39,845 nucleotides of DNA from a virus, in the IMG/VR virus record IMGVR_UViG_3300025133_008382, positions 1-39,845 of that record, one strand, 5' to 3'. Positions 1 to 33,426 of the stretch are shown piece after piece (positions within the stretch are counted from its first letter, which is position 1; every line of letters starts with the position of its first letter). Position numbers and translations under genes: made by a program. The notes under the pieces were generated by a model that searched no databases, was not told the origin of the DNA, and was given only the letters and a program-made list of their open reading frames with translations.

Positions 1-3000
1 ACAAGCGGACATACAGTCACTGCTAATGGTAATGCAGCTATCACAACTTCGGAGAAGAAGTTTGGAGCAGGATCTGCATACTTCGATGGCAGCGGAGATT
101 ATTTAAGTGTTCCAAGCAGTAGCAATTTTGTGTTTGGAACAGACGACTTCACGGTTGAAATGTGGTGCTATTCAACAGATAATCGCGACTTTGGCTCTCT
201 CATCGACAACCGCGCAGGATCAGTCTCCGGAGACTGGATGATTGGGTGTAAAGCAGATCACCAGCTTTATGTTTGGGGTGCCAACTCCTTTACAGTAACT
301 AGTGGCGCAACTCCACTAACAGAGAATATCTGGCATCATATCGCCTACACTCGCGCAAGCGGCACTCATTACTTATTTATTGATGGCACCCTAGTGGGCA
401 CCGGAAATGCTGCTAAAAATTATCAGCAAGTTGGAATTCTCTCCGTTGGTGCAAGAGGCGCCGGCGGCGAAAACTTCAAAGGCTACATCGACGACATCCG
501 CATCACAAAGGGTCTCGCCCGTTACACAGCAAACTTCACAGTTCCAGCAGCAGCACACCCACTTGCAACAACAATGCAAGACCCAAGTGCCTACACAGTT
601 ACTTACACCGCAACCGATGCAGCAAGCAATGTTGCAACAGCAACTCGCATAGTAAACGTCGAAGCTGACAATCCCCCAGTAATCACTCTTACTGGGAATG
701 CCAATATAACAGTCGAAGCCGGCACTTCTTATACCGACCCCGGCGCCACAGCAACGGACGACAATGATGGAAATCTCACCTCCTCAATAGTGACAACCAC
801 AGTTAAGGGAATATCAGGCGCAGTATATACAGAGGATTTATCGGGAGGATCAACCGGTTGGACAGACAACACCGTTACTTCCTATACTGCTACTAGAACA
901 GATACCAGCACAGCTATCTCAGGATATATGCACGGAAGGTTCGGAGGAACTAGCAATAATGAAAAAACCATTACTATCTCCGGAGCAACTGGGCAAACTA
1001 TTAATATTAAGGGTAAATATTTTATTCTTGATTCGTGGGATACCGAACCGGGAAAAATATATGTTAATGGAGTAGAAATGATTGGGTTTACCGCCGGCGG
1101 AGGCGGCTCACCGGTTTCTTTCTCAAATGGCTCGGGACTTGTTACTGCTCAATATCCTATTAGTGGATTTAACCACGATAAGGGATGGGGCAATGAGAAT
1201 GTTATAGAGTTTGATATCCCATACGTCATGACCAGTGATTCTGTTGTCCTCAAATTTTACGCAGGATTAAGTTCTGGAGCAAACGATGAATCAATGGGGT
1301 TTTCTATTGATGAAATTTCAATGCCAGAGATACCAGTTGGAAGCGTAGACGCTAACAGTGCGGCAGTATATACTGTGCGGTACAACGTAAGTGATTCAGC
1401 AGGCAATGCAGCCACACAGGTGATAAGGACAGTCACCGTGGCAGACACAACAGCACCAGTGATCACAGTAACAGGAGCTAACCCAGCAACAATAAATGCA
1501 GGAGCAACCTACACCGATGCTGGAGCAACAGCAGTAGATAATATTGACGGCGCAGTAGCAGTTGTGACTACAGGAGTAAGTGCCATAAGTGAAGCCGCAG
1601 ACGCAAATTGGAACGATGTCAAGCTGCTTCTACCACTTGATGGAAATGCAACAGACTCCTCCACTAGCGGACATACTGTCAGCCTAAACGGAAACGTTTC
1701 ACATTCTACAGCTCAACAGAAATTCGGCACTCATTCGGCACTCTTTAGTTCAAATGGTCAGGGCAAAATTACTCTTCCAAGCACACAAGATGTAGCTTTT
1801 GGAACAGGAGATTTCACGATTGAGATTCATGCATACTGGACCAGTGTTGCAATGAATACGGGGAGTATGTATCCCACATTTTTTGATAGTGGCTGTGGAT
1901 CCGGTCCTGGCCTTGCAATCAGAAGGCACAATAGCGGAAGCTCTTTACAGATTTTTGGACCAGGACACGCAGGTGGACAAACTATTGGGTGGACACCATC
2001 AGCCGGACAGTGGTATCATCTTGCATTTGTAAGAGATGCCGGCACATTTAAATTCTTTGTGGATGGTACGCTGGTGGGCACACAATCATTTAATTATAAT
2101 TTCGGCGTAGGATCTTGGCCTGTTGTTATTGGTGGATCACGCCACGAATCGGGTGAAGGTTTAAAAAATGTACATTTAGATAATGTTCGCATCACAAAAG
2201 GCGTAGCTCGTTACACAGCAAACTTCACAGTTCCCACAGCAGCACACCCAACAGCCAACTCAACAGGCGGAGCAATCGCAGGCACTCACACAATCACCTA
2301 CACAGCAACAGATGCGGCAAGTAACGTTGCTACTGCAACCAGAACAGTAAACGTCATTGCTGACACAACAGCACCAGTAATCACGGTTCTAGGAAATAAT
2401 CCAGAATCAACAAGCACTAATTTAGCTTATACCGATGCTGGAGCAACAGCAGTCGATGCAGTTGACGGAGCAGTGGCGGTTGTTACAACAGGACTTGATG
2501 CTATAGGAATCGCCGCAACAGAAACATTCGCCTATACTGGAGCCGATCAATCATTCGTAATTCCAGCCGGAATAACTTCAATCACAGCATGCTTATGGGG
2601 CGCAGGTGGAGCAGGTGGATATCCTGTAAACGGCGCAGGTGGACCAGGAGCAGCGGGCGGTTACGCCGAAGGAACAATCGCGGTTACTCCTGGTGAAACC
2701 ATTACATTAGTAGTTGGCGGAGCAGGAAACATAACATCTGGATCTAACACTTATACTCCCGTTGTATACGGCTTCGGCGGAAGAGGAAGGGTTCAATACC
2801 ACAACGGAGCAGGCGGCGCAGGTGGTGGTCTCGCAGGACTCTTTAGGGGATCCGCCGATCAATCAAACGCTTTAATTATTGCTGGTGGTGGAGCCGGCGG
2901 TGGTGGATATTTCACCTCAAACAATATCGCAGGAGCAGCCGGTGGACTTCTTGGACTCGACGGTGGAGATCCTGAATCCGGTACCGGTGGTACCCAAACA

Positions 3001-5181
3001 GCAGGAGGCACAGCAGCATCTGTTCAGTACGCTGGCACAGCCGGATCAGCGCTACAAGGCGGAAACGGTGGCCACATTTGTGGTGGTGGTGGTGCAGGTT
3101 ACTTTGGTGGCGCCGGCGGCGGACATGTCGGAGGCTCCGGAAGAACAGCCTCTGGTGGTGGTGGATCCTCCTTTCTCGGAACGACAACCGATTCATTAAC
3201 CCAGGCAGGCTCAAATGTAACTCCTCCATATCAAAGTTCCGATAAATATGTAGCAGGAGTTGGGGTTGGCGGAGCAGCTAACACTGTAGGTGGCCCTGCG
3301 CTTATCGTTATCTCTTATTCCTCTGGCAGTACAGCCGGAACACACACAGTTACTTACACCGCAACAGACGCAGCCGGCAATGCTGGAACTGCAACTAGAA
3401 CAGTTACTGTTATTCCAGACACAACAGCACCAGTAATCACAGTAACGGGCGATAATCCAGTTAATATACTTCCTGGAGCAGCCTACACAGATGCTGGAGC
3501 AACAGCAGTAGACAATATTGACGGAGCAGTGGCGGTTGTGACGACAGGTCTTGCAGCAATCGGGATCCCAACCACCGACGCGCTAGCTTATACCGGCGCC
3601 GAACAAACGTATATAGTACCAGCAGGAATAACTTCAATCACAGCAAAATTGTGGGGAGCAGGTGGAGGTAGCACCGCCAGCAGCGCAGGAACAGGCGGCG
3701 CCGGCGGATACACCGAAGGAACAATCGCAGTCACTCCAGGAGCCACTCTTAAAATAGTCACCGGTGCAGGTGGAGCAGCAGGCACGGCAGGATCCGCAGG
3801 AGCCGCCGGTTACGGTGGCGGTGGAGCAGGTGGCCCAAGAGGTGGCAGACAAGGCGCCGCTGGTGGCGGTTATTCTGGCATTTTCCTTAATACAGTTAGT
3901 CACAGTACAGCGCTACTCATTGCAGGTGGTGGTGGCGGCGCCGGCTTTCAATACGGACCAACCCCAGCCGGCAACGGTGGCGCAGGTGGTGGAACAACAG
4001 GCTCTGACGCACCTAATGTTGGAAACTATCCAAGTAACTGGGGCGGATTTGGAGCAACAGGTGGATCACAAACATCTGGTGGTGCAATCGGTAAAGCTTG
4101 GTTTCACAACGGAGGCGACCAGGGCTATCGTAACGCAACCGTGGGTTCTGCACTCCAAGGTGGAAATGGTGGAGACAGGGGCGACGACGTTGGCGGCGGC
4201 GGCGGTGGCGGCGGCGGCTACTACGGCGGTGGCGGCGGAGCAGGAGCCCAACCAGGCATCGGCGGTGGCGGCGGTTCCTCTTTTATAATAGGCACTGCAA
4301 CTAACTCACAAACTATTGCCGGCACGACATTCACGCCTCCACAACAAAGTGACGCGGATTATGTCGCAGGCACCGGCCTCGGCGCCGCTCTAACTAACAG
4401 CGGAGGAAACGGCCTAGTCACGATTACACATTCAGGCGGAGGTGCAATTGAGGGTACCCATACAGTTACTTACACAGCAACAGATGCATCAAGTAACGTA
4501 GCAACGGCAACAAGAACAGTTGTAGTAGCGCCACCATTTGTAAAGCCAGGACAGGGAGTTAATCGTTATGACTATATCTCAGACCCACTGGTAGTTGGTT
4601 TGGCCGCTCCCACTGGAGCAGGCGGTTTAGCTCAATCAGACGATGGCGAAGCTGGAATCTATGTTGATCTTGATGAGTTCTTACACGAGACAACAGGAGT
4701 AACGGTATGGACAAGAAACACCAGCGGTGTATGGTCAACTTGGGATGCAACTCCAACAAAGGGCTTCACCTTTCCATGGGGCACATCAGAGCAGTCAATA
4801 TATTTTCAGATTGGAGCCCCAAGTAATAAGTTTGTTCGAGTTGTTAAAATGCAGGAAGCAATTGTATACGATGCGAATAAAGCAGATGACGATGACAGTT
4901 CTCAGACTCTCAAAAGAAGAGGCGAGGCACCAATAACTTTGGATCCAACACTAGGTGAACCAGTCATTGAATTTGCTACCGTCAACTGGCCAGCCTTAGA
5001 GGTAAAAACATTCAAAACACCAAATCCGTTCACACCGGTTATTCAAGTTTGGACATATGAAGGAACTCTGGCGACACTAGCATCTCCAGGAGATTTTGAA
5101 ATTGATGTTATTGACCCAGATGCCGCATCTATAACCAGGCTAGTTGGCTCAGGCAATGTAAAAGTCCGGATAATGGACTAA
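1..5181 (+). CDS. Giant modular tail fibre/adhesin (LamG, DUF5011-type Ig-like, Gly-rich modules), 5'-truncated
   Basis: The frame is open from base 1, and residues before the first possible start (GTG at 130) already belong to a LamG fold, so the true start lies upstream of the window. Modules in order, by base: LamG/concanavalin-like domain (1-560); Ig-like DUF5011-type repeat with a PPVITLTG strand and a TDPGATATDD turn (660-800); an inserted beta domain (800-1330); a second Ig-like repeat (1340-1575); a second LamG (1600-2260), ending like the first in a VRITKG-ARYTANFTVP motif; Ig-like repeat (2280-2500); glycine-rich domain (2520-3330); Ig-like repeat (3340-3560); second glycine-rich domain (3580-4440); Ig-like strand and a unique C-terminal domain (4450-5181). 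LamG and glycine-rich modules in phage fibres usually bind surface glycans, so a host-recognition fibre is the best reading. The exact fibre type is inferred. A terminator follows directly. Confidence 0.85.
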   Translation, partial: TSGHTVTANGNAAITTSEKKFGAGSAYFDGSGDYLSVPSSSNFVFGTDDFTVEMWCYSTDNRDFGSLIDNRAGSVSGDWMIGCKADHQLYVWGANSFTVTSGATPLTENIWHHIAYTRASGTHYLFIDGTLVGTGNAAKNYQQVGILSVGARGAGGENFKGYIDDIRITKGLARYTANFTVPAAAHPLATTMQDPSAYTVTYTATDAASNVATATRIVNVEADNPPVITLTGNANITVEAGTSYTDPGATATDDNDGNLTSSIVTTTVKGISGAVYTEDLSGGSTGWTDNTVTSYTATRTDTSTAISGYMHGRFGGTSNNEKTITISGATGQTINIKGKYFILDSWDTEPGKIYVNGVEMIGFTAGGGGSPVSFSNGSGLVTAQYPISGFNHDKGWGNENVIEFDIPYVMTSDSVVLKFYAGLSSGANDESMGFSIDEISMPEIPVGSVDANSAAVYTVRYNVSDSAGNAATQVIRTVTVADTTAPVITVTGANPATINAGATYTDAGATAVDNIDGAVAVVTTGVSAISEAADANWNDVKLLLPLDGNATDSSTSGHTVSLNGNVSHSTAQQKFGTHSALFSSNGQGKITLPSTQDVAFGTGDFTIEIHAYWTSVAMNTGSMYPTFFDSGCGSGPGLAIRRHNSGSSLQIFGPGHAGGQTIGWTPSAGQWYHLAFVRDAGTFKFFVDGTLVGTQSFNYNFGVGSWPVVIGGSRHESGEGLKNVHLDNVRITKGVARYTANFTVPTAAHPTANSTGGAIAGTHTITYTATDAASNVATATRTVNVIADTTAPVITVLGNNPESTSTNLAYTDAGATAVDAVDGAVAVVTTGLDAIGIAATETFAYTGADQSFVIPAGITSITACLWGAGGAGGYPVNGAGGPGAAGGYAEGTIAVTPGETITLVVGGAGNITSGSNTYTPVVYGFGGRGRVQYHNGAGGAGGGLAGLFRGSADQSNALIIAGGGAGGGGYFTSNNIAGAAGGLLGLDGGDPESGTGGTQTAGGTAASVQYAGTAGSALQGGNGGHICGGGGAGYFGGAGGGHVGGSGRTASGGGGSSFLGTTTDSLTQAGSNVTPPYQSSDKYVAGVGVGGAANTVGGPALIVISYSSGSTAGTHTVTYTATDAAGNAGTATRTVTVIPDTTAPVITVTGDNPVNILPGAAYTDAGATAVDNIDGAVAVVTTGLAAIGIPTTDALAYTGAEQTYIVPAGITSITAKLWGAGGGSTASSAGTGGAGGYTEGTIAVTPGATLKIVTGAGGAAGTAGSAGAAGYGGGGAGGPRGGRQGAAGGGYSGIFLNTVSHSTALLIAGGGGGAGFQYGPTPAGNGGAGGGTTGSDAPNVGNYPSNWGGFGATGGSQTSGGAIGKAWFHNGGDQGYRNATVGSALQGGNGGDRGDDVGGGGGGGGGYYGGGGGAGAQPGIGGGGGSSFIIGTATNSQTIAGTTFTPPQQSDADYVAGTGLGAALTNSGGNGLVTITHSGGGAIEGTHTVTYTATDASSNVATATRTVVVAPPFVKPGQGVNRYDYISDPLVVGLAAPTGAGGLAQSDDGEAGIYVDLDEFLHETTGVTVWTRNTSGVWSTWDATPTKGFTFPWGTSEQSIYFQIGAPSNKFVRVVKMQEAIVYDANKADDDDSSQTLKRRGEAPITLDPTLGEPVIEFATVNWPALEVKTFKTPNPFTPVIQVWTYEGTLATLASPGDFEIDVIDPDAASITRLVGSGNVKVRIMD

Positions 5182-5203: not shown

Positions 5204-5228
5204 AAGGCGGGTTAATCCCGCCTTTTTT
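5204..5228 (+). terminator. Intrinsic terminator after the fibre gene
   Basis: A perfect 8-bp stem (AAGGCGGG / CCCGCCTT) with a 5-nt loop runs into a T tract, 23 nt after the fibre stop codon. It separates the fibre gene from the yeaH-spoVR-prkA operon. Confidence 0.9.
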
Positions 5229-5250: not shown

Positions 5251-5259
5251 CTATTTACA
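5251..5259 (+). promoter_or_regulatory. Putative late promoter (CTATTTACA) of the yeaH-spoVR-prkA operon
   Basis: CTATTTACA lies just before the Shine-Dalgarno AAGGAG and 18 nt before the ATG at 5278. The same CTAYTTAYA-like motif sits at similar distances before several virion genes in this window. It is AT-rich like T4 late promoters, but its function is inferred from position and recurrence only. Confidence 0.5.
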
Positions 5260-5277
5260 TAGGAAGGAGTAAGCTGT

Positions 5278-6492
5278 ATGAGCATTTTTCGTAAGCACAA
5301 AACAGTAGCAGACAGATCAGCGGCTGACCGTGCAAGACATAAAAAGAAAATAGAGAAAGCGATCAAGGAAGGGATTAAAGATGTAGTTGCAGAAGAGTCT
5401 ATCATTGGACAAAACGGAAAGAAGAAAATAAAGATTCCAGTAAAGGGTATAAAAGAGTATCGTTTTGTATATGGCTCCGGAGAACAAAACAAACAAGTTG
5501 GTTCAGCAGGCGATAAACAAATAAAGAAAGGCCAAGGTTTATCTCAGAGAAGAAAGGCCGGCCAAAAGCCAGGGAAACAAGCAGGTAACCAAGCAGGTGA
5601 AGAATACTATGAAGTAGAAGTAACCTTAGAAGAACTAGCAGAGTATCTCTTTTCAGACTTAGAATTACCAGAGTTAGAAAAGAAGAAGTTTCGTTTCTTA
5701 AAAGATGATAAACTAAAGAGAAAAGGTTATCGCTCAAAAGGAATTCACCCGAGACTCTCAAAGAAAGAAACATTAAAGAAAAGAATCAGAAGAAGAAAAG
5801 CAGCAGAAAGAGCAGGAACTTATGATCCAGAGAAGGACGAGAGGTTCCCCTTTCACGAAAGCGATTTGAAATATAAACATATGAAAGTTGTGAAAGAAGA
5901 ATCAAACATGGCTGTAATCTTTTTCTTGATGGATGTATCCGGCTCAATGGGAAAACAAAAAAAGTACCTCGCCCGATCCTATTATTTTCTCCTCTACCAA
6001 TTCCTCAGACACAAATACGAGAATGTAGAAGTTGTATTTATCTCACACACGACAGAAGCCAAAGAAGTCTCAGAAGATGATTTCTTTCATACAGCGAGTA
6101 CTGGCGGAACAAGAGCTTCTTCAGCATTCGAGATGACAAAAGATATAATTGAAAAACAATATCACCCAAGCAACTGGAACATTTATATCTTCTACTCCGG
6201 AGATGGAGAAAACTGGCCAGATGATAACAAGAAAGCTCTGAGCCTTATAGAACAATTAAAACAAATTTGCCGTATGATAGTATATACTGAGATTGATCCC
6301 TTCTTTGTTCAAGAGGCCCCAAGGAATATTGGGTCTCATTTGGCACAGTTACTAGGGGAATCATCGATAAGACAACTTTGGATGAATCTCGATGCTCTTG
6401 TCGGAAAACATTTTAAGAAAGCAAGAATAGCCACACCCTCAGACATCTGGCCAGTCTTTAATAGAATATTCGGAGGTAAAGACACACAATGA
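5278..6492 (+). CDS. yeaH: YeaH/YhbH family protein (DUF444, VWA-like)
   Basis: The protein has 404 residues, close to Bacillus YhbH and E. coli YeaH. The N-terminal half is very basic and probably disordered. A VWA-like domain starts near residue 212, with a MIDAS-type DVSGSMG (Asp219) and a later GGTRASSA that can supply the conserved Thr. A YSGDGENWP segment typical of the family follows. In bacteria YeaH is encoded with the PrkA kinase and SpoVR/YcgB and is linked to stationary-phase or stress responses and sporulation; its biochemical role is poorly known. Here it opens an operon with those same two partners, overlapping spoVR by ATGA. The start is supported by AAGGAG upstream. Family assignment is firm; the role in infection is unknown. 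Confidence 0.92.
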   Translation: MSIFRKHKTVADRSAADRARHKKKIEKAIKEGIKDVVAEESIIGQNGKKKIKIPVKGIKEYRFVYGSGEQNKQVGSAGDKQIKKGQGLSQRRKAGQKPGKQAGNQAGEEYYEVEVTLEELAEYLFSDLELPELEKKKFRFLKDDKLKRKGYRSKGIHPRLSKKETLKKRIRRRKAAERAGTYDPEKDERFPFHESDLKYKHMKVVKEESNMAVIFFLMDVSGSMGKQKKYLARSYYFLLYQFLRHKYENVEVVFISHTTEAKEVSEDDFFHTASTGGTRASSAFEMTKDIIEKQYHPSNWNIYIFYSGDGENWPDDNKKALSLIEQLKQICRMIVYTEIDPFFVQEAPRNIGSHLAQLLGESSIRQLWMNLDALVGKHFKKARIATPSDIWPVFNRIFGGKDTQ

Positions 6493-7808
6493 GTTATACT
6501 GTAAATGATTTAGATTATTGGGATAAAAAGATAAATGAGATCGCAAAAGAGAAGTATGGTCTCGAATGGTACCCTGTTGAATATGAAATAATAGATTTTC
6601 ACGAAATGATGGGGGCGATGGCATATGTCGGACTACCCACCCATTATCGTCACTGGAGCTATGGAAAAGCATTTGAAAGAACGCAAACCTCTTACAACCT
6701 TGGTCAGTCTGGCTTACCCTACGAAATGGTTATCAATTCTAATCCGTCTATCGCTTATCTGATGCTAGAAAATCCACTAAGCACGCATATCCTTACGATG
6801 GCTCATGTTGTCGGCCACGTACACTTCTTTACAAACAATAGAATGTTCAAGCATACAGGCGCAGATACAATTATCTCTCGTTTTAAACTAGCAGCCAAGA
6901 GAGTCCAGAGTTATATCGAGAATCCAAATATAGGAATAGATAAAGTTGAAAAGGTATTAGATGCAGCACATGCAATTCGATATCAACAACCAAGAACCCC
7001 CGGTATTAGAAGAGAGACACCTGAGGAACTAAGAGAAAAATATATAAACTTAATCAATAATGACTCAACAGGGAAGTTTGAAGACTTCGATATTAACAGA
7101 AAACCACTGGAATCGGACTATAACATACTATCTTTCATACGAGAGAACAATCATAACCTCGAAGAGTGGGAAAAAGACTTATTAAAGATAGCAGAAGACG
7201 AGGCAAAGTATTTTATGCCTCAAGCCCAAACAAAGATAATGAATGAGGGCTTCGCCTGCTATATACACTATAAACTATTACATGACTTAGAATTACCAGA
7301 CGATATGCACCTCGCCTTTGTAAAGCTGCACAACCAAGTTGTCAGATCTCATTTGGGGAAAATTAATCCATATCATCTGGGATTCGTAATGATGATGAAA
7401 ATAGCAGAAGAACACGGACACGAAGCAGTCATAGAAGCTGTAAATATTCACGATGATGAAAGTTTCCTTAGAAAGTATCTTGACTTTGATTTATGCAATG
7501 AACTTAACTTATTCTCCTATTCTTTTTCAAAAAAGCAAAGAAAACACGTAGTTCAAGATATTTCTGACGAAGATGGGTGGAAAGAGGTCCGTGACGCACT
7601 AGTTAGTACTGTGGGACTGAAGTCGGTTCCAGTAGTCTATGTCAGCGATGTTGATCCCAAGAGTGGGGTCCTCTACCTTCATCATGAGCATGATGGCAGA
7701 GATCTTGATATAGAGTACGCCAATCAGGTTTTTAAACATATTGAGAATCTGTGGGGCAGACGTGTTGTAATGTATTCTATTGTAGAAGGTGAAATATGGG
7801 AGTTCTAA
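6489..7808 (+). CDS. spoVR: SpoVR/YcgB family protein
   Basis: The protein has 439 residues, slightly shorter than B. subtilis SpoVR and E. coli YcgB. The N-terminus (DLDYWDKKINEIAKEKYGL, then a YPVEYEIID segment) and the central signatures MAHVVGHVHFF and NEGFACYIHY match the family. Conserved histidines and glutamates in these motifs could bind metal, but no catalytic activity is established for the family. SpoVR is a spore cortex factor in Bacillus, but homologues are widespread in non-sporulating bacteria, where they co-occur with PrkA and YeaH. The start codon overlaps the yeaH stop (ATGA) and the prkA start lies 2 nt after the stop, implying translational coupling. The gene order yeaH-spoVR-prkA differs from the usual prkA-yeaH-spoVR. 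Confidence 0.92.
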   Translation: MSYTVNDLDYWDKKINEIAKEKYGLEWYPVEYEIIDFHEMMGAMAYVGLPTHYRHWSYGKAFERTQTSYNLGQSGLPYEMVINSNPSIAYLMLENPLSTHILTMAHVVGHVHFFTNNRMFKHTGADTIISRFKLAAKRVQSYIENPNIGIDKVEKVLDAAHAIRYQQPRTPGIRRETPEELREKYINLINNDSTGKFEDFDINRKPLESDYNILSFIRENNHNLEEWEKDLLKIAEDEAKYFMPQAQTKIMNEGFACYIHYKLLHDLELPDDMHLAFVKLHNQVVRSHLGKINPYHLGFVMMMKIAEEHGHEAVIEAVNIHDDESFLRKYLDFDLCNELNLFSYSFSKKQRKHVVQDISDEDGWKEVRDALVSTVGLKSVPVVYVSDVDPKSGVLYLHHEHDGRDLDIEYANQVFKHIENLWGRRVVMYSIVEGEIWEF

Positions 7809-7809
7809 A

Positions 7810-9744
7810 ATGAGCAAAAAAACACAGAAATTTCTTAAGCTGGTTGAAAAACATCAGGAGAAAGCAAAAATTAAAAGATTTCGAGGAACAATGTCAGATT
7901 ACCTCAAAATGCTTGAAGGTGATTCTTCGGTAACGATGCTATCACACAAGCGCCTTTATGAGTCAATCATTGGCCATGGGATAACCAGGCTAGAAGAATC
8001 TGATTCACGGTGTCAGAAATTATTCGGAGGAGACAAGCTAAGAACCTATGATTATTTTCAATCTCAGTTCTTTGGTATGGAAAGGCCTCTTGCAAAAATA
8101 ATGAGATACTTGAGTTCAGCATCAATGAAAGGTGAAGAATCCAGACAAGTTCTACTTCTTCTTGGTCCAGTCGGCGCAGGTAAGTCTGCTCTAATGGAAC
8201 ATATCAAGAGCGCACTTGAAACTCAAACAATGTATCATATCGATGGGTGCCCTATCCACGAAGAGCCATTACACGCTCTTCCTCGATCATTGCGCTCAGA
8301 GTTCGAGACTATCTATGGAGTCAAGATTGAAGGTGATCTTTGCCCAGTATGTCGCTACACACTATTAGAAGATTTTGGCGGAGACTACATGAAACTTCCA
8401 GTCAAAGAATCTACCTTTTCAGTCAGAGGAAGAAGGGGCGTAGGCGTAGTTCCTCCTATGGACGCAAACACGCAGGATACGAGCCTTCTAATAGGGTCTG
8501 AGGACATCTCTAAGCTAGACTTGTATCCAGAGGATGATCCTCGTTGTTTATCCCTAAATGGGGCTTTCAACGTAGGTAATCGCGGTATCGTAGAATTCGT
8601 TGAAGTATTCAAAAACGAGATTGAATTCCTCCATACGATGATCACCGCAACACAAGAAAAATCAGTTCCATCACCAGGCAAGGGAGCTATGATTTATTTC
8701 GATGGTGTTATCCTTTCTCACTGCAATGAAGCAGAATGGAACAGGTTTAAGTCAGAGCATACAAACGAAGCAATCCTCGATCGTATTGTTAGAGTCAATG
8801 TACCATATTGTTTGGAAGTTGATGAAGAACAAAAGATCTATAATAAGATGCTTGGTAGTTCAGATTTTGATGCTCACATCGCCCCTCATACACTTGAGAT
8901 GGCCTCTATGTTTGCAGTACTCTCTCGTCTTAAAATCTCCAACAAGGTCGACCCCCTAACCAAAATGAAGATCTATAACGGAGAAGACGTAATTGAAAAG
9001 GGTATTATCCGTAAAATTGATATTGAGGATCTCCGAGATGAAGCCAGGGACGAAGGTATGACTGGAATCTCTACCCGCTTTATTATGAAAGCAATTGATT
9101 CAGCCCTATCTGATTCCGAGAAGGGAATGGTAACACCAATTTCTATTCGAGATGCCCTTATTAAACAAGTAAAGGATCAGATTGTTTCCGAGGAAGAAAG
9201 AGAAAGATTACTTCAGTTCCTCCAGAAAGATCTGCACGATGAATACCTCAAGATTCTAGAGAAGGAAATAACAAAAGCTTTTGTCTCTGCATACGAAGAG
9301 CAAGCTGAGTCACTTTTCAACAATTATCTCGATCATGCTGAAGCTTACGTCAATTCTACAAAAGTTAAAGATAGTATTACTAGTGAAGAAATGACACCAG
9401 ATGAGGACTTTATGGTATCAGTAGAAGAACAAATTGGTATTATTGGATCCTCAAGAGAAAACTTCCGTGCTGATATTACAGCCTATATGTTCTCCAAACT
9501 TCGCCGCAAAGAGAAGATTGACTGGAGGTCTTATGCACCTTTAGCAGAAGCTATTGAAAACAAACTAATGGCTTCAGTAAGGGAATTATCAAGAATTGTC
9601 ACCAAGTCTAAGTCGAGAGACAAGAAACAAAAAGGTAAGTATAATGAGATGGTAGAAACTCTAATTAACGAGTATGGATACAACGAATCCTCCGCAGAAG
9701 AGGTAATCAAGTTTGCATCCAATAATTTGTGGCGAGACTCCTAA
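7810..9744 (+). CDS. prkA: PrkA family serine protein kinase (YeaG-like)
   Basis: The protein has 644 residues, the full length of the family (E. coli YeaG is also about 644). The N-terminal AAA-type PrkA domain has Walker A GPVGAGKS (residues 119-126) and a family segment with MYHIDGCPIHEEPLHALP and CPVCRYTL. Walker B-like YFDGVILSHCNEAEW follows, where most relatives read ILAHSNESEW. The C-terminal PrkA domain is complete, with no sign of decay. PrkA proteins are reported Ser/Thr kinases, and some relatives have been proposed to act as AAA proteases. I chose ATG 7810 over GTG 7789 because the upstream start would overlap spoVR, and GGGAG lies before 7810. Phage-borne PrkA may reprogramme host stress or dormancy physiology; that is inference. 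Confidence 0.93.
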   Translation: MSKKTQKFLKLVEKHQEKAKIKRFRGTMSDYLKMLEGDSSVTMLSHKRLYESIIGHGITRLEESDSRCQKLFGGDKLRTYDYFQSQFFGMERPLAKIMRYLSSASMKGEESRQVLLLLGPVGAGKSALMEHIKSALETQTMYHIDGCPIHEEPLHALPRSLRSEFETIYGVKIEGDLCPVCRYTLLEDFGGDYMKLPVKESTFSVRGRRGVGVVPPMDANTQDTSLLIGSEDISKLDLYPEDDPRCLSLNGAFNVGNRGIVEFVEVFKNEIEFLHTMITATQEKSVPSPGKGAMIYFDGVILSHCNEAEWNRFKSEHTNEAILDRIVRVNVPYCLEVDEEQKIYNKMLGSSDFDAHIAPHTLEMASMFAVLSRLKISNKVDPLTKMKIYNGEDVIEKGIIRKIDIEDLRDEARDEGMTGISTRFIMKAIDSALSDSEKGMVTPISIRDALIKQVKDQIVSEEERERLLQFLQKDLHDEYLKILEKEITKAFVSAYEEQAESLFNNYLDHAEAYVNSTKVKDSITSEEMTPDEDFMVSVEEQIGIIGSSRENFRADITAYMFSKLRRKEKIDWRSYAPLAEAIENKLMASVRELSRIVTKSKSRDKKQKGKYNEMVETLINEYGYNESSAEEVIKFASNNLWRDS

Positions 9745-9801: not shown

Positions 9802-9854
9802 AAACCACCCAAGTGTGATTCAACCAAACGTTTAAAGCATCTCGGTGGTTTTTT
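9802..9854 (+). terminator. Probable terminator after prkA, long loop
   Basis: AAACCACC (9802-9809) pairs with GGTGGTTT (9844-9851), followed by more T residues. The 34-nt loop is unusually long for a simple terminator and could hold extra structure. Confidence 0.6.
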
Positions 9855-9947
9855 CTTTATTATCATTTTTCCTCAATATTCTTTATCTTCCTTTTGAAGA
9901 AAAAAGGAGTAAGTAATGCGAGTGGGGAACTTTCTCTACTCAATGCC

Positions 9948-9976
9948 GTATCCCTTTAAGGGGGATACTTTTTATT
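9948..9976 (+). terminator. Terminator-like hairpin in the fibre leader
   Basis: GTATCCC (9948-9954) and GGGATAC (9962-9968) form a 7-bp stem with a 7-nt loop, followed directly by TTTTTATT. It lies between an upstream ATG with a strong Shine-Dalgarno (ATG 9916) and the likely fibre start at 9997, so it may be an attenuator rather than a simple end of transcription. Confidence 0.65.
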
Positions 9977-9996
9977 CCAATAGGAGGAAATATAAC

Positions 9997-12654
9997 ATGG
10001 CAAAAACAAGAATCCGTTTAGACGGACAAACAGACAACGACCTCGTAGATATGAATGGTAACGCAGTTCAAGATGGAACTGGTACTGATCTCTCTTCATA
10101 CGGAGTTGGTGGTCTGGAAGGTCATCTGCTACGCGCAGATGGCAAAATTCAACTCTCTGCTGAAATCGCAGCGATTGAATCTGGCCACGACAAGTCAGTA
10201 ACTACTAAAGAGTGGCAGGTGTCAAAGCATAATTATCTAGATGCAAAAATCGAAGATAATTCAGCCGCCAGCGCCGCAGAAATTTCGGTTGTGGCCGCCA
10301 ACCTGGCCCTCGAAGAAAGTCGTGCTCTCGCCGCAGAATCAGCCCTGCAAGCTAGCATCGACGCAGAGGCAGTTGCTGCCCGCGCCGCTGAAGCTGGCAT
10401 TCAAGCTGCTCTAGACACACAAGAAGCTAAAGAAGCTGCATACGAGGTATCTAACGACGCCGCTCTTGCTGCTGAAATCGCTCGTGCTACTGCTGCTGAA
10501 GTTGCACTTCAAGCTGATGTTGACTTAAACGAAGCTGACGGTGATACTGATCGCGCACTCATTCGTACCGAAATGGCTGCAAACGAGTCCGCTCGTGATA
10601 CTTCTGTTGAAGCAATCCGTGCAGCCCTTCAAGCTGATGTTGATCTAAATGAAGCTGATGGCGACACCGACCGCGCTGCTATCCGCAGTGAAATCGCTGC
10701 TGCAAAGCTCGTCGATGACGCTGCTCTAGCTACTGAAGTTGCTCGCGCAAGCGCTGCTGAAGCCGCTCTTCAAGCTGACGTTGATCAGAATGAACTAGAT
10801 GGTGACAACGATCGCGCTGCTATCCGCAGTGAAATCGCAGCCGCAAAGCTCGTTGATGACGCTGCTCTAGCTACTGAAGTTGCTCGCGCAAGCGCTGCTG
10901 AAGCTGCTATTCAGGCTGACGTTGATCAGAATGAATCTGATGCTGACGCTGCAATCGCAGCACTTCAAGCTGATGTTGACTTAAACGAAGCTGACGGTGA
11001 TACTGATCGCGCACTCATTCGTACCGAAATGGCTGCAAACGAGTCCGCTCGTGATACTTCTGTTGAAGCAATCCGTGCAGCCCTTCAAGCTGATGTTGAT
11101 CTAAATGAAGCTGATGGCGACACCGACCGCGCTGCTATCCGCAGTGAAATCGCTGCTGCAAAGCTCGTTGATGATGCTGCTCTAGCTGCTGAAGTTGCTC
11201 GCGCAAGCGCTGCTGAAGCTGCTATTCAAGCTGATGTTGATCAAAATGAATTAGATGGTGACAACGATCGTGCTGCTATCCGCAGTGAAATCGCTGCTGC
11301 AAAGCTCGTTGATGATGCTGCTCTAGCTGCTGAAGTTGCTCGCGCAAGCGCTGCTGAAGCTGCTATTCAAGCTGATGTTGATCAAAATGAAGCTGATGGC
11401 GATGCTGATCGCGCTCTCATCCGTACCGAAATGGCTGCAAATGAGACCAATCGTGATGCATCTGAAGCTGCTGCTATTCAAGCTGCGGTTAATAGCCTCA
11501 TTGATGCTGCTCCAGCCACACTGGACACTCTCAATGAACTAGCTGCTGCAATGGCCGACGATCCGGATTTCCATGCATCGATGGCGACTATTCATGCTGC
11601 TGCAACTACAGACCGCGCTCTCATCCGCACTGAAGCTCTTACTGAAAAGGGTCTCAAGGATGTTGCAATCGCAGCCCTTCAAGCTGATGTTGATCTAAAT
11701 GAAGCCGATGGCGACACCGACCGCGCTGCTATCCGCAGTGAAATCGCAGCCGCAAAGCTCGTCGATGATGCTGCTCTAGCCGCTGAAGTTGCTCGCGCAA
11801 GCGCTGCTGAAGCTGCTATTCAAGCTGATGTTGATCAGAATGAACTAGATGGCGACAACGATCGCGCTGCTATCCGCAGTGAAATCGCTGCTGCAAAGCT
11901 CGTTGATGACGCTGCACTCGCTGCTCTTCAAGCTGATGTTGATCAAAACGAAGCTGATGCTGATGCATCTTTTGTTGCTGCGACAACTGATCGTGCTCTA
12001 ATCCGCACTGAGATGGAAACTGAGTCACTTGCTCGTGAAGCTGCTGAAGCTGCTATTCAAGCTGATGTTGATCAAAACGAAGCTGACGCTGACGCCGCAC
12101 TCGCTGCTCTTCAAGCTGATGTTGATCAAAACGAAGCTGATGCTGATGCATCTTTTGTTGCTGCGACAACTGATCGTGCTCTAATCCGCACTGAGATGGA
12201 AACTGAGTCACTTGCTCGTGAAGCTGCTGAAGCCGCTCTTCAAGCTGACGTTGATCAGAATGAACTAGATGGTGACAACGATCGCGCTGCTATCCGCAGT
12301 GAGATGGAAACTGAGTCACTTGCTCGTGAAGCTGCTGAACTAGCGCTCCAGAATCGCGCAACCTTCCTAGAAGGTCGCGTTATGAAAGAGTACTTCGTTG
12401 TCGCACAGAATGCTGAAACTGATTTCGCACTTTCAGAGCTAGCAGAGCACGGATCCATTATGGTATTCGTTAATGGTCTTCTTCAAGAAGTCGATTACAC
12501 CGTCTCTGATGGTCAAGGTGGAACTACTACTACGGTACTAGACTACACCATGTCTGAAGCCGGTTCACCGCTCAAGTCTGTTGTAGTATTCAATGTCCCA
12601 GGATTAATCGCAGGAGACAGAGTATCTGTCAAATACGATAAGAGATTAGTATAA
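9997..12654 (+). CDS. Repetitive coiled-coil-like tail fibre/whisker protein
   Basis: The protein has 885 residues. An N-terminal head of about 80 residues contains RIRLDGQTDND and GGLEGHLLRADGKIQ. A long Ala/Glu/Asp-rich shaft (about residues 85-785) is built of recurring units such as AALQADVDLNEADGDTDRA, IRSEIAAAKLVDDAALA and EVARASAAEAA. It is predicted alpha-helical and probably a trimeric coiled coil. A C-terminal beta-rich tip begins near EYFVVAQNAETDFALSEL. The architecture fits a fibrous virion protein, though which fibre is unclear. I chose ATG 9997 because TAGGAGG lies 9 nt upstream. An in-frame ATG at 9916, also with a good Shine-Dalgarno, would add 27 residues across a terminator-like hairpin. 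Parts of the shaft are exact DNA duplications. A strong terminator follows. Confidence 0.82.
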   Translation: MAKTRIRLDGQTDNDLVDMNGNAVQDGTGTDLSSYGVGGLEGHLLRADGKIQLSAEIAAIESGHDKSVTTKEWQVSKHNYLDAKIEDNSAASAAEISVVAANLALEESRALAAESALQASIDAEAVAARAAEAGIQAALDTQEAKEAAYEVSNDAALAAEIARATAAEVALQADVDLNEADGDTDRALIRTEMAANESARDTSVEAIRAALQADVDLNEADGDTDRAAIRSEIAAAKLVDDAALATEVARASAAEAALQADVDQNELDGDNDRAAIRSEIAAAKLVDDAALATEVARASAAEAAIQADVDQNESDADAAIAALQADVDLNEADGDTDRALIRTEMAANESARDTSVEAIRAALQADVDLNEADGDTDRAAIRSEIAAAKLVDDAALAAEVARASAAEAAIQADVDQNELDGDNDRAAIRSEIAAAKLVDDAALAAEVARASAAEAAIQADVDQNEADGDADRALIRTEMAANETNRDASEAAAIQAAVNSLIDAAPATLDTLNELAAAMADDPDFHASMATIHAAATTDRALIRTEALTEKGLKDVAIAALQADVDLNEADGDTDRAAIRSEIAAAKLVDDAALAAEVARASAAEAAIQADVDQNELDGDNDRAAIRSEIAAAKLVDDAALAALQADVDQNEADADASFVAATTDRALIRTEMETESLAREAAEAAIQADVDQNEADADAALAALQADVDQNEADADASFVAATTDRALIRTEMETESLAREAAEAALQADVDQNELDGDNDRAAIRSEMETESLAREAAELALQNRATFLEGRVMKEYFVVAQNAETDFALSELAEHGSIMVFVNGLLQEVDYTVSDGQGGTTTTVLDYTMSEAGSPLKSVVVFNVPGLIAGDRVSVKYDKRLV
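10505..11168 (+). repeat. Exact 208-bp direct repeat, 456 bp apart, in the fibre shaft
   Basis: Bases 10505-10712 are identical to 10961-11168, including synonymous positions; the first difference is at 10713/11169. The spacing of 456 bp is 152 codons, so the reading frame is kept. This points to a recent tandem duplication or gene conversion. Confidence 0.92.
11914..12233 (+). repeat. Exact 137-bp direct repeat, 183 bp apart, in the fibre shaft
   Basis: Bases 11914-12050 are identical to 12097-12233, spaced 183 bp (61 codons) and therefore in frame. Together with the larger upstream repeat it shows that shaft length changes by unit duplication. Confidence 0.92.
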
Positions 12655-13151: not shown

Positions 13152-13216
13152 AGTAATTCTCTTGTAGTAACTTCCTATAAAAATAACATAAAAAAAGACT
13201 TTGAGTTTTTCCAATA

Positions 13217-13246
13217 CTATTTATAAAGGAAAACAAAGTATTTATA
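13217..13246 (+). promoter_or_regulatory. Tandem putative late promoters of the tail sheath gene
   Basis: CTATTTATA at 13217-13225 and GTATTTATA at 13238-13246 lie 35 and 14 nt before the sheath ATG. These are two close copies of the motif seen singly at other late genes, and a doubled promoter would suit the most abundant tail protein. Function is inferred. Confidence 0.5.
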
Positions 13247-13260
13247 GGAGAATACCACTC

Positions 13261-16107
13261 ATGTCAACTAAAAAGTTTAAGTTCGTATCACCGGGCATCT
13301 TTCTCAACGAGGTAGATAATTCACAACTACCAGCAGATGCTGAAGCAATGGGCCCCGTAATTATTGGCCGCACAGCCTTTGGTCCATCAATGAGACCAGT
13401 GAAGGTCAATTCATTTTCAGAGTTCATCGAGACTTTCGGAAATCCAGTTCCTGGTAATCAGGGCGGAGATACCTGGAGACTAGGAAATCTAGCAGGCCCA
13501 ACTTATGCAGCATATGCAGCACAGGCATATCTAAGAGCAGGAGTTGGTCCAGTAACAATGATTAGGCTCGCAGGACAAGAGCACGATCAGGCAACCGGCT
13601 ACGCAGGATGGCAGACAGTAAAGGCAACGTCCGCCACGGCTTCCGGAAGTAATGGTGGAGCATACGGACTATACTTAATGTCAGGAAGTGTTTCGGGAAG
13701 CGCCGGCGGCGCCCAAGACGTAACAGGAACACTAGCAGCCATCTTTTATGTTAATGATGGAGGCGGTATGGCCCTAACGGGAACACTAGATGGTGGTACC
13801 ACAGCTACTGGCTCACAAGCCATCTTTACAACAAGCTCAGATAATTCTTGGAAGATGGAAGTTCGTGATAAGGACGGAGATACAAAACTAACTACAGAGT
13901 TTAATCTTACTCCATCTTCTAATAAGTTTATCCGCAATGTATTTAACACAAACCCAATGTTAGTTAATGGAGAGGTTGTAGACACCGGCTCTCTCGGCCA
14001 AGGCCAAAATACTTACTGGTTAGGTGAATCATTTGAAAACACTATTGCCTCTTCCGCACTAACTTATGAGTACGCTACTCTTATTCCGCTAGAGAGTGGA
14101 AGCGGAGATTTTGCTAATAGGGCAGCAATGCACCTAGAATCAACACCAGCAGCAACCGGCTGGTTCTTTTCACAAGACACCACAACAGATAGTGGATCAT
14201 ACGCATATGCAAGCATGCAAAACTTATTCAAGTTTCACGCTCTTGACGGAGGAGACTGGTCACAAAACAATCTTAAAATCTCAATCAAAGATCTCAAGTA
14301 TTCAAGAAATACAGACCCAGCAAACGCTTACGGTTCTTTCACGGTTCTCGTCAGAAGAGCTTCGGACAATGATAACGCAGTTCAGATTATTGAACAATAC
14401 ACAAATTGTAATCTAAATCCTGCTTCTGATGATTATGTTGGAACTAAGATCGGAGACAAAAAGTATGTCTGGGACGAACCCCAGCAAAGACTAAGAGAAG
14501 TCGGAGAGTTCAACAACAAATCCAGATATATCCGCGTAGAAATTAACTCAGAGGTTGCTTCAGGCCGCACTCCTGCCGAGCTACTGCCATTCGGTGTATA
14601 CGGACCAGCTAAACTTAAGGACATCGTACTCAAGCCAACCGGAACACTTGGAGCCGATGGATTTGAAGTATCCTCATCTGATGGATATGCGGCAAGTGAC
14701 TCATATCTAGGGAGAGCAACCGTCGATGGCGCCGTATTATCCTCTTCATATACAGACATTCACGCAAACACCCGGATTCTTCTTGAGATGCCAAAAGTCG
14801 CGACAAGGCTTTCAGCTTCTGACGGCGGAATTTCCGATCCAAAGAACGCATATTTCGGAGCAAAAACAACATACCACCCAACCACGCGACATGACGTAGG
14901 TTACGGTGATTATCTAAGACCATTTCCTGCGGGAACGGAAACAGAGCCCCAATTTACATTCACGCTAGACGAGGTTGTTACCTCTGGTTCCGCAACGGCA
15001 TATGTCGAAGCCGGCTCACGTAAGAGTAAAAGATCAGCCACTACCGGCGCCGGTAGTTGGAAAACAATCATCGATGCTGGATACACAAGATTCACAACTC
15101 CACTATTTGGCGGTTTTGAGGGCGTTGACATCCGAGAGATGGAGCCATTCAGAAATACTCTGCTTGCTGACCAGACCGACGTAAGCAGCTACGCATATAA
15201 CACCGTAAAGAGAGCAATTGATACAGTATCCGATCCAGAATACACCGAGTGTAACCTAATCACTATGCCTGGACTTACCGAGGATACTCTAACAACTCAT
15301 CTTCTAACTACTTGCGAGGATAGGGCAGACGCCTTGGCTCTATTCGATCTAGAATCAACTTTCTTCCCAGCAACAGAGGGCGAGGATTATAAAAACTTCG
15401 AAGATAGAGCACAATCAGTCGCAAGCGCAATAAACGCTTTTGAAGATCGTCAGATTAACTCTTCTTACGGCTGCACCTACTACCCCTGGACTCAGATTAG
15501 AGATTCAATCAGCGGCCAAATGCTCTGGGCACCACCCTCCATTGTCGCTCTTGGAACATTTGCTTCCTCAGAGGCAAAATCAGAGATTTGGTTTGCACCA
15601 GCCGGCTTTAATCGCGGAGGCCTAACAGAAGGTTCAGCAGGTATACCAGTTATCAGCGTATCCCGCAAACTAACTTCAAAGGATCGTGATGATCTTTACG
15701 AAGCAAATATTAACCCAATCGCATCATTCCCATCAGAGGGTCTAGTTGTATTCGGTCAGAAGACCACACAACAAACCCCCAGCGCTCTTGATCGTATCAA
15801 CGTTCGCAGAATGATGCTCTTCGTCAAGAAGGAAATCTCAAGAATTGCAGCAGGAATCCTATTCGACCAAAACGTCAAGGTAACCTGGAATCGCTTCTTG
15901 GGAGAGGTCAACCCATTCCTAGCTAGTGTTCAATCCAGATTGGGCCTAACAGAATATAAGGTTATCCTTGATGAAACAACCACAACCCCGGATCTAGTTG
16001 ATAGAAACATTCTATACGCTAAGATCTTCCTAAAGCCAGCAAGGGCAATCGAGTTTATCGCAATTGACTTTGTAATTTCAAGAAGTGGCGCTTCTTTTGA
16101 AGACTAA
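13261..16107 (+). CDS. Contractile tail sheath protein (T4 gp18-like)
   Basis: The protein has 948 residues. The N-terminus (KFVSPGIFLNEVDNSQLP, then GPVIIGRTAFGP) is the classic sheath start. The C-terminal third carries the conserved sheath core: NVRRMMLFVKKEISRIAAGI and a final KIFLKPARAIEFIAIDFVIS strand used in sheath-sheath linking. T4 gp18 is about 660 residues, so some 290 extra residues form surface insertions in the middle (about 130-450). The sheath contracts around the tube to drive DNA delivery. ATG 13261 is chosen over an upstream in-frame TTG at 13201 because TATAGGAG lies just before it and the family motif begins there. It is followed by the tube gene, as in T4. Confidence 0.93.
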   Translation: MSTKKFKFVSPGIFLNEVDNSQLPADAEAMGPVIIGRTAFGPSMRPVKVNSFSEFIETFGNPVPGNQGGDTWRLGNLAGPTYAAYAAQAYLRAGVGPVTMIRLAGQEHDQATGYAGWQTVKATSATASGSNGGAYGLYLMSGSVSGSAGGAQDVTGTLAAIFYVNDGGGMALTGTLDGGTTATGSQAIFTTSSDNSWKMEVRDKDGDTKLTTEFNLTPSSNKFIRNVFNTNPMLVNGEVVDTGSLGQGQNTYWLGESFENTIASSALTYEYATLIPLESGSGDFANRAAMHLESTPAATGWFFSQDTTTDSGSYAYASMQNLFKFHALDGGDWSQNNLKISIKDLKYSRNTDPANAYGSFTVLVRRASDNDNAVQIIEQYTNCNLNPASDDYVGTKIGDKKYVWDEPQQRLREVGEFNNKSRYIRVEINSEVASGRTPAELLPFGVYGPAKLKDIVLKPTGTLGADGFEVSSSDGYAASDSYLGRATVDGAVLSSSYTDIHANTRILLEMPKVATRLSASDGGISDPKNAYFGAKTTYHPTTRHDVGYGDYLRPFPAGTETEPQFTFTLDEVVTSGSATAYVEAGSRKSKRSATTGAGSWKTIIDAGYTRFTTPLFGGFEGVDIREMEPFRNTLLADQTDVSSYAYNTVKRAIDTVSDPEYTECNLITMPGLTEDTLTTHLLTTCEDRADALALFDLESTFFPATEGEDYKNFEDRAQSVASAINAFEDRQINSSYGCTYYPWTQIRDSISGQMLWAPPSIVALGTFASSEAKSEIWFAPAGFNRGGLTEGSAGIPVISVSRKLTSKDRDDLYEANINPIASFPSEGLVVFGQKTTQQTPSALDRINVRRMMLFVKKEISRIAAGILFDQNVKVTWNRFLGEVNPFLASVQSRLGLTEYKVILDETTTTPDLVDRNILYAKIFLKPARAIEFIAIDFVISRSGASFED

Positions 16108-32034: not shown

Positions 32035-33426
32035 ATGAGTACCACCAAAAGAGACGACTTCAGCCGTTTCGGTAAAGAATTTCAAGAGTCTCTTTGTCAT
32101 CTCATTTTAATAGATCGCCCGTTCGCTGATCAAATGTTCGAAGTTCTAGATATGAACTTCTTCGAACAAAAATATCTCCAGGCCTTCATTTCTCTCATCC
32201 AATTATACCGCGAGGAGTTCAAAACACAGCCTAGCGATAGTGTGATGAAATCGCTGATCAGAACAAAACTCAGCAATCAATCAGATACGATCAAAAAACA
32301 AATTAGAGACTTTTACGCCAGGATCTCACGTTTTGAAAATGATGATGCTGAATACGTCAAAAAAACCGCCTTAGATTTTTGCAAAAAACAAAAACTTAAA
32401 GAGGCGATGTTAAAGTCGATTCCTCTGCTGGAGGAGTCCTCTTTTGAAGAAGTTGTCAGTATTATTACCAGCGCCGCCAACCTGGGCATTGATAGCGACT
32501 ATGGACACGACTTCATCCTAGACTTTGAGAAAAGGTTCGAGGTTAAAAGTAGAAATCCGATAACGACAGGCTGGGATGAAATTGATAAAATAACCCAAGG
32601 AGGCTTCGGCCAAGGGGAACTAGCAGTTGTGATTGCTGCAACAGGCGGCGGAAAAAGCCAATGCCTCGTCCATGTAGCAACTCAAGCCATTAAGGAGGGC
32701 AAGAACGTTGTATATTATACTTTAGAATTAGCGGACACAGTAGTTGGCGCCCGCTTTGATTCTTGCTTGACCGGAGTGCTGCTTAGGGACAGGTGGACAT
32801 TTAAAGAACAAATTTATGAAAGAATTCAAGAAGATGATTTGGGCAGACTAATTATTAAAGAGTACCCAACAAAGAGCGCTTCGGTGGAAACGATTAAAGC
32901 ACATCTGGATAAGCTTTCTAGAAAAAAGATAAAACCAGATATGATCATTGTAGATTATGCAGATTTACTGACTCAAAGGATAAATCTCAAAGAAAGGCGC
33001 CATCAGTTGGAATCTACTTATGAGGAGTTACGAGCACTGGCACAGATTAATAAATGCACCGTAGTGACGGCCTCTCAGACAAATAGGAGCGGCGTTAATT
33101 CTGACTTAATCACAATGGAGGTTATTTCAGAAGCATTTAACAAGTGTTTCGTCGCAGACTTCATTTTCTCTATTTCGAGAACCCTAGAAGAGAAAGAAAT
33201 CAATTCGGGGAAATTCTATATTGCGAAAAATAGAAACGGACCAGACGGAATTATATATCCAGCTATTATTGACTACTCCAAAGTATACATCGACATTCGC
33301 CCCTCTACAGGCGAAAGTATTGGAGATGTCCAAGACAACGCGAAAAAGAGGCAAGAAGAGAAATTATCATCGATGTATAAAAAATACAAAAAGAATGGGA
33401 AGAAGAAAGATGAACCAAAAAAATGA
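32035..33426 (+). CDS. DnaB-like replicative helicase (gp41 role)
   Basis: The protein has 463 residues (T4 gp41 475, E. coli DnaB 471). A helical N-terminal domain (about 1-150) is followed by the RecA-type motor: TGWDEIDKITQGGFGQGELA, Walker A ATGGGKS (residues 202-208), Walker B PDMIIVDYADLL, then a VVTASQTNRSG motif and a KNRNGPDG segment with the arginine-finger region. The C-terminus is basic (KKYKKNGKKKDEPKK). It unwinds DNA at the fork. No primase gene is seen in this window. A sigma70-type promoter precedes it, and its 3' end overlaps nrdJ by 17 nt. Confidence 0.92.
   Translation: MSTTKRDDFSRFGKEFQESLCHLILIDRPFADQMFEVLDMNFFEQKYLQAFISLIQLYREEFKTQPSDSVMKSLIRTKLSNQSDTIKKQIRDFYARISRFENDDAEYVKKTALDFCKKQKLKEAMLKSIPLLEESSFEEVVSIITSAANLGIDSDYGHDFILDFEKRFEVKSRNPITTGWDEIDKITQGGFGQGELAVVIAATGGGKSQCLVHVATQAIKEGKNVVYYTLELADTVVGARFDSCLTGVLLRDRWTFKEQIYERIQEDDLGRLIIKEYPTKSASVETIKAHLDKLSRKKIKPDMIIVDYADLLTQRINLKERRHQLESTYEELRALAQINKCTVVTASQTNRSGVNSDLITMEVISEAFNKCFVADFIFSISRTLEEKEINSGKFYIAKNRNGPDGIIYPAIIDYSKVYIDIRPSTGESIGDVQDNAKKRQEEKLSSMYKKYKKNGKKKDEPKK

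Follow-up and report, generated by a model that had tools for sequence, protein, structure and literature searches.

The IMG/VR virus record IMGVR_UViG_3300025133_008382, a DNA stretch of 39,845 bases that was analyzed in its whole length and is called the window below, contains between positions 5278 and 9744 all three genes of the bacterial PrkA-YeaH-SpoVR module, linked to each other and in the same orientation. The first gene (5278..6492, plus strand as the other features of this locus) encodes a DUF444/YeaH-YhbH protein of 404 amino acids with an N-terminal basic region and a VWA domain containing an intact MIDAS, the second (6489..7808) SpoVR with 439 amino acids, and the third (7810..9744) the PrkA/YeaG AAA+ ATPase with 644 amino acids and the domains PF08298 and PF06798. 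The PrkA open reading frame (ORF) could already open at a GTG at position 7789, but the likely start is the ATG at 7810. The preliminary description of this region had proposed full-length partners with intact motifs, coupled by an ATGA and by a spacing of 1 to 2 nucleotides (nt), and it was right in both respects: when the sequence is read directly, yeaH and spoVR overlap by the ATGA (−4 nt), the stop codon of spoVR and the start codon of prkA are separated by 1 nt, and the three genes are translationally coupled.

The Pfam scores of all three proteins were far above the curated cut-offs. In PrkA, the AAA_PrkA domain PF08298 (468 bits) and the C-terminal domain PF06798 (266 bits) followed each other over the full length of the protein, spanning residues 27 to 635. 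The intact Walker A motif GPVGAGKS and, for the sensor region, the sequence HCNEAEW were conserved in 39 phage copies in agreement with the bacterial motifs, and a solved PrkA relative was found in the PDB (9xip, at 1.6e-96). The preliminary description had regarded the operon as a kinase module. Serine phosphorylation of host or virion proteins by PrkA would agree with the family annotation and with an earlier in vitro phosphorylation by the Bacillus subtilis protein, as cited in PMC13001217. However, the conserved nucleotide-binding motif is the Walker A of an AAA+ ATPase, no match to a Pfam protein-kinase domain was obtained that would indicate a Hanks-type Ser/Thr kinase, and a 2026 study found the B. 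anthracis homolog to be an AAA+ protein with negligible kinase and protease activity (PMC13001217). The designation as a kinase module is weak, and phosphorylation as the function of the operon is improbable.

The DUF444 protein matched PF04285 with 372.7 bits but reached only 384 of the 468 bits required by the NCBIfam YhbH equivalog model, so that it is a divergent member of this family. Its MIDAS follows the DxSxS...T...D pattern, with D219xS221xS223 (DVSGS), T278, and D309 being invariant in 39 phage copies and also present in bacterial copies. The structural model matched VWA folds in the PDB with E values down to 5e-07, including the MIDAS of Rea1/MDN1. An AAA+ ATPase is paired with a MIDAS VWA protein in the MoxR/RavA-type AAA+ systems and in Rea1/MDN1, and this pairing is similar to that of PrkA and YeaH, while PrkA belongs to an AAA family of its own and SpoVR has no counterpart in these systems.

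SpoVR matched PF04293 (385 bits) and SpoVR_C, PF24755 (39 bits), but was below the cut-off of the NCBIfam equivalog PRK11767 (285 of 679), and with 439 amino acids it is shorter than SpoVR of most bacteria with roughly 450 to 550 amino acids. The motifs H106xxxH110 and N252-E253-G254 were invariant in 39 phages; H106, H110, and E253 were kept in all 23 sequences compared, which came from phages, including Thermus and huge phages, and from bacteria. In the structural model, which is confident (pLDDT of 85.7), two helices carry these residues in what looks like a metal site, so that SpoVR is probably a metal-binding protein. A search by sequence for solved structures of SpoVR or DUF444 found none. 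An assignment of SpoVR to the HExxH gluzincin metallopeptidases, which the HxxxH...E pattern had suggested, was not supported and is no more than an idea, because the catalytic Glu is missing and a confident fold match was not obtained; gluzincin matches by Foldseek, for example, to an M61 aminopeptidase, appeared only at E values of about 0.6 or worse.

Upstream of yeaH, a clear intrinsic terminator with 8 pairs, AAGGCGGGTTAATCCCGCCTT followed by TTTTGT (5204..5224, z = −3.58 for the fold of the region), ends the preceding structural gene and insulates the operon. It is followed by a promoter-like motif of the putative late type, CTATTTAC (5251..5258, consensus CTAYTTAY), 27 nt before yeaH, and by a ribosome-binding site, AGGAAGGAG (5261..5269), read directly from the sequence. 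Downstream of prkA, a terminator-like hairpin, AAACCACC...GGTGGTTT, with a long loop and a subsequent T-run (9802..9851, −15.5 kcal/mol), was weak (z = −1.55): 14 of 200 shuffled sequences folded as well, and a scan for canonical terminators missed it. The operon had been described as bounded by terminators, and this holds for the upstream but hardly for the downstream border.

The motif CTAYTTAY occurred at 14 sites in the window, all of them on the coding strand, compared to a mean of 5.3 and a maximum of 12 in shuffled sequences. Six of the 14 sites were positioned 11 to 34 nt upstream of gene starts when 0.39 were expected (p of about 1e-6, an optimistic value because the motif was picked after viewing these upstream regions). 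The starts concerned were those of yeaH and at 12756, 16144, 17866, 37937, and 38504, which are the gene leading into the tail sheath gene, the tube gene, the gene ahead of the tape measure gene, and two genes near the right end, respectively. This agreed with the earlier proposal that the operon has a promoter-like motif in common with virion genes. It supports, but does not prove, that the operon may be expressed late and together with virion genes. The replication-side genes at 27416 and 36860 were preceded by TTGACA/TATATT-like boxes instead of CTAYTTAY; two promoter classes may thus exist in the window, one for these two genes and the other for virion and other genes. A scan for sigma-70 promoters between 4900 and 13300 was uninformative, with 11 matches compared to 15.1 expected. 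The late promoter of the T4 type, TATAAATA, was rejected as a candidate: the sole exact match in the window, at 28211, is inside a coding region and therefore not a late promoter here.

Relatives of the operon were collected by a scan of IMG/VR with the PrkA of the window, which yielded 142 relatives, and the best 80 of these 142 were fetched. Two of the 80 contigs start at or within spoVR, and the remaining 78 have room for the triad. The preliminary description had recommended a search for phage genomes in which DUF444, SpoVR, and PrkA co-occur, and all three were present in each of the 78 loci, always in the order yeaH-spoVR-prkA and on one strand, with intergenic distances of −8 to 13 nt and 1 to 69 nt, respectively. 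The order prkA-yeaH-spoVR usual in bacteria was found in none of these loci. In two of the relatives (L002 and L003), the motif ahead of yeaH was again at −27, and a second sub-lineage had it mostly between −14 and −25. The carriers are a large group of tailed phages from dozens of environmental samples. They are apparently marine, a label that comes from contigs with such copies in metagenome-assembled genomes (MAGs; TMED69 and Halobacteriovorax). In the TMED69 phage (L083), an additional ORF of about 83 amino acids is inserted between yeaH and spoVR.

A recent host capture, an assembly chimera, or a mislabeled bacterial contig could also bring such genes into a virus record, and a contig map assigning them to a bacterial chromosome would have spoken against a phage operon. 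Nothing specific pointed in this direction, although the INPHARED record LAU1 suggests that such artifacts occur. On the other hand, several independent contigs (e.g., L002, L003, L005, L013, L014, and L034) linked the triad to genes for head or sheath, which ruled out a chimera or a host contamination. Moreover, the triad is part of a 305,838-base contig (G002:C5; L083 and L217 to L232) that had been binned into a MAG of the Methylococcaceae. The first 25.7 kb of this contig recur at its end with 99.9 to 100% identity, so that the genome comprises about 280 kb, and it also encodes a sheath, a tube, UvsX, DnaB, SSB, a ribonucleotide reductase, and several tRNAs. It seems to be the genome of a jumbo phage that was placed in the wrong bin, which means that the lineage includes jumbo phages. 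An artifact is thus an extremely improbable explanation. The LAU1 record itself (L116, MN688132, an Enterobacter phage) opens with yeaG-yeaH, which group with Escherichia coli and are probably host DNA flanking a prophage. A scan of the whole GTDB for the motifs of the phage PrkA gave only four matches, three apparent phage contigs and one contig of the Alicyclobacillaceae.

The phage copies might have formed their own clade or might have been nested singly within host genomes as recent acquisitions, and the protein trees decided in favor of the clade. In the three trees, which had 28 to 33 rows in the bacterial group, including the host-like LAU1, plus the Thermus and huge phages, the marine-type phage copies were all on one side of a single branch (SH-aLRT of 100 for PrkA, 99 for SpoVR, and 98 for YeaH), and single copies nested within bacterial clades did not appear among them. 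The nearest cellular copies were in all three trees those of the same small group of Bacillota (L117 to L120), a sister group that is provisional because the bacterial sampling comprised about 260 genomes of three phyla. These copies are chromosomal, with neighbors such as genes for a histidine kinase, an aminotransferase, and a Na+/H+ antiporter, they are arranged as prkA-yeaH-spoVR, and their PrkA is 55 to 59% identical to that of the phages. One of these genomes (G039) and a related one of the Alicyclobacillaceae (G004) each contained a second, ordinary PrkA.

The trees of the three genes agreed with each other within the phage clade (Mantel r of 0.80 to 0.86, compared to permutation maxima of up to 0.16), and the module has diverged in step with the DnaB helicase of the phages (r of 0.77 to 0.88, 13 genomes); one conflicting row, L031, suggests an occasional exchange. 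The dN/dS ratio was 0.02 to 0.06 where synonymous sites were unsaturated, and the operon is under strong purifying selection. Together, the trees, the agreement with DnaB, and the low dN/dS indicate an old, mostly vertically inherited, and functional operon, and they ruled out a recent acquisition.

Compared to the bacterial prkA-yeaH(yhbH)-spoVR(ycgB) module, for instance, YeaG-YeaH of E. coli with YcgB encoded elsewhere or PrkA-YhbH-SpoVR of Bacillus, the phage operon has the same three full-length families with the same catalytic and metal-site residues but differs by its order, its phage promoter motif, and its phage-only clade. The preliminary description had noticed the different order, and this was confirmed against prkA-yeaH-spoVR as the norm in the sampled bacteria, with the exception of two Bacillota chromosomes (L122 and L123) that share yeaH-spoVR-prkA with the phages. 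The complete triad in phages, which the preliminary description could not verify, has precedents in cultured Thermus phages and huge phages. All three genes occur in the Thermus phages phiYS40, TMA, MN1, phiLo, and Lalka8/27, exactly as yeaH-spoVR-prkA in MN1, phiLo, and Lalka8, and in the same order with one inserted ORF in TMA. Their PrkA, SpoVR, and DUF444 proteins form a clade of their own, with a PrkA identity of about 32 to 36% and a very diverged SpoVR, and a scan of IMG/VR with the PrkA of MN1 found no relatives. The order yeaH-spoVR-prkA is consequently common to two separate phage clades and to L122 and L123.

The uncultured huge phages of about 600 kb, LR745206, LR756502, LR756504, and LR756511, and their kin in IMG/VR also possess the complete triad, but, unlike the window, in the order prkA-yeaH-spoVR where the genes are linked, which is the case in three of the four. 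Three of them branch near copies of the gammaproteobacterial type and LR756511 (L189) near those of the Bdellovibrionota type; the grouping of the LR756511 PrkA may be a hint of a past or present host. Another 97 loci in IMG/VR showed the bacterial order, a number in which one contig was perhaps counted twice due to overlapping stretches fetched by two queries and which may include bacterial contigs, since one PrkA was 98% identical to that of E. coli. The Ralstonia jumbo myovirus RsoM2USA encodes SpoVR (ORF28) and PrkA (ORF30) close together, with a DUF444 partner not named as such (PMC8504454), and probably represents a separate acquisition because its SpoVR is 56% identical to a Vibrio protein (PMC8504454). 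Large phages probably took up the module several times, because the Thermus clade and the two huge-phage branches lie apart from the marine-type clade. PrkA-YeaH-SpoVR in large phages is, as a kind, already in public genomes; as far as the literature examined goes, the novelty lies in the repeated uptake and, for this lineage, in how widely, how long, and how strictly the operon has been kept, in the permuted order of its genes, and in their regulation.

In the sub-lineage of the window, the operon is positioned between the genes for the major head protein or head-tail adaptors and the tail sheath gene, and independently, the triad of Lalka8 is between portal or minor head and terminase genes and thus in a head and packaging block. 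In other sub-lineages, it is beside genes for PhoH, a helicase, a phosphomannomutase, or a sigma-like protein, or it forms an island on the strand opposite to its neighbors. The proposed location inside a virion gene block is therefore correct for the sub-lineage of the window and for Lalka8 but not for sub-lineages with other flanks, and because the flanks differ, the position alone is no proof of a role in the virion. Such a role would mean that the machine folds, remodels, or covalently matures fibers, neck, or head of the phage and does not act on host physiology. The two head-associated positions and the virion-type promoter motif would agree with this possibility. The position away from virion genes in most other sub-lineages does not, and bacteria use the module without any virions. 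Moreover, related contigs with sheaths about 50% identical, including fragments of 64.6 kb and 36 kb, were without PrkA and the operon, which is consequently not universal among related sheath-bearing phages and dispensable for such tails unless it is encoded off these fragmentary contigs. A function as a virion morphogenesis factor is, all in all, unlikely, albeit the most serious of the alternatives.

The best reading of the operon product is a lineage-conserved remodeling machine of AAA+, VWA, and SpoVR components, driven by ATP and probably made late; its mechanism is derived from the motifs and from published PrkA biochemistry and its timing from the promoter-like motif. PrkA as AAA+ ATPase would spend ATP hydrolysis on the remodeling of a target, YeaH as its MIDAS/VWA partner would recruit or position this target, as in the MoxR/VWA and Rea1-MIDAS pairs, and SpoVR would be a dedicated third component that is acted on by, or acts together with, the PrkA-YeaH pair. 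The operon would be switched on late with the virion genes and would, as its most likely benefit, put or keep the infected cell in the state that the host's own copy maintains during starvation or in stationary phase. A host kept productive while starved may allow a slowly maturing large phage to complete its assembly. YeaG and YeaH of E. coli jointly put a brake on metabolism during nitrogen starvation (PMC10954441). The earlier suggestion of a host held in a stress-adapted state is plausible. The chances are about even that a complete module was acquired long ago as a unit by a large tailed-phage lineage, some members of which are jumbo phages, and was kept as a late operon for remodeling the host state. 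Host physiology as the target of the machine is likewise given roughly even probability, with virion proteins at about half of that, and this target is the least certain part of the explanation.

Several observations weigh against this explanation. The exact late motif preceded yeaH in only 16 of the 78 related loci, and most of the others were without it. Late expression fits an early takeover of the host poorly. The HxxxH motif of SpoVR reads H-V-V-G-H, without the Glu expected in the HExxH of a classical protease, although a downstream Glu is present, and the SpoVR model had no confident match in the PDB by Foldseek (best E value of 0.099), so that the part of SpoVR in the machine is a guess.

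The operon may alternatively be ordinary auxiliary cargo that promotes dormancy or sporulation of the host and preserves the phage genome in this way. The spoVR gene was reported to be the most abundant sporulation auxiliary metabolic gene in viromes of oxygen-minimum zones and has been interpreted in this sense (PMC8940887). The PrkA family, however, is widespread outside spore-formers, with matches in 27 of 120 genomes from the phylum of the Methylococcaceae MAG (G002) and in 57 of 59 from that of Halobacteriovorax (G003); no integrase was seen among the genes of the window, and the operon is strictly conserved and preceded by a late-type motif. Sporulation cargo is thus a quite improbable explanation, slightly more so than the kinase module. 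Many genomes in the set of G003 and its phylum contain, in addition to their ordinary PrkA, distant PrkA-like proteins of about 720 to 800 amino acids with about 24 to 28% identity.

The broadest interpretation, held tentatively and with somewhat less than even confidence, would be that the module, as a late-expressed remodeler, is a conserved physiological necessity for the whole lineage of large marine phages, by arresting or protecting starved hosts or by maturing virions, and that several unrelated lineages of large phages took it up independently, two of them ending with the same rearranged order. The PrkA-YeaH-SpoVR stress module is widespread in bacteria. Its joint retention in phages under strong purifying selection indicates what the smallest functional unit is, and the many diverged phage copies are a resource for finding essential residues. 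By keeping the triad, large phages may be actively managing starved hosts, an idea that could be tested in the cultured Thermus phages. Metagenomic spoVR signals read as "sporulation" genes may often represent a yeaH-spoVR-prkA operon.

The rest of the window consists of virion and replication genes of a tailed phage. The upstream neighbor of the operon (130..5181, plus strand) encodes a structural protein of 1683 amino acids with LamG, Ig-like, and glycine-rich domains, and the downstream neighbor (9916..12654, plus strand) a tail-fiber-like protein of 912 amino acids as listed, with weak PHROG tail matches. The tail sheath gene (13201..16107, plus strand) is followed by tube, hub, tape measure, and baseplate genes, and beyond these are genes for a DNA polymerase-like protein, SSB, UvsX, a dCMP deaminase, an exonuclease, DnaB, and a ribonucleotide reductase. 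The fiber ORF has a better Shine-Dalgarno sequence and start at the ATG at 9998 than at the listed position 9916, and a terminator-like hairpin at 9948 to 9968, just inside the ORF as listed, may be part of a leader or attenuator ahead of the fiber gene. The large subunit of the ribonucleotide reductase (33221 to 36799) is split by an intein of the HNH type at about residues 353 to 663, with the ends NPC^VIGETL...IKN^CGEI.

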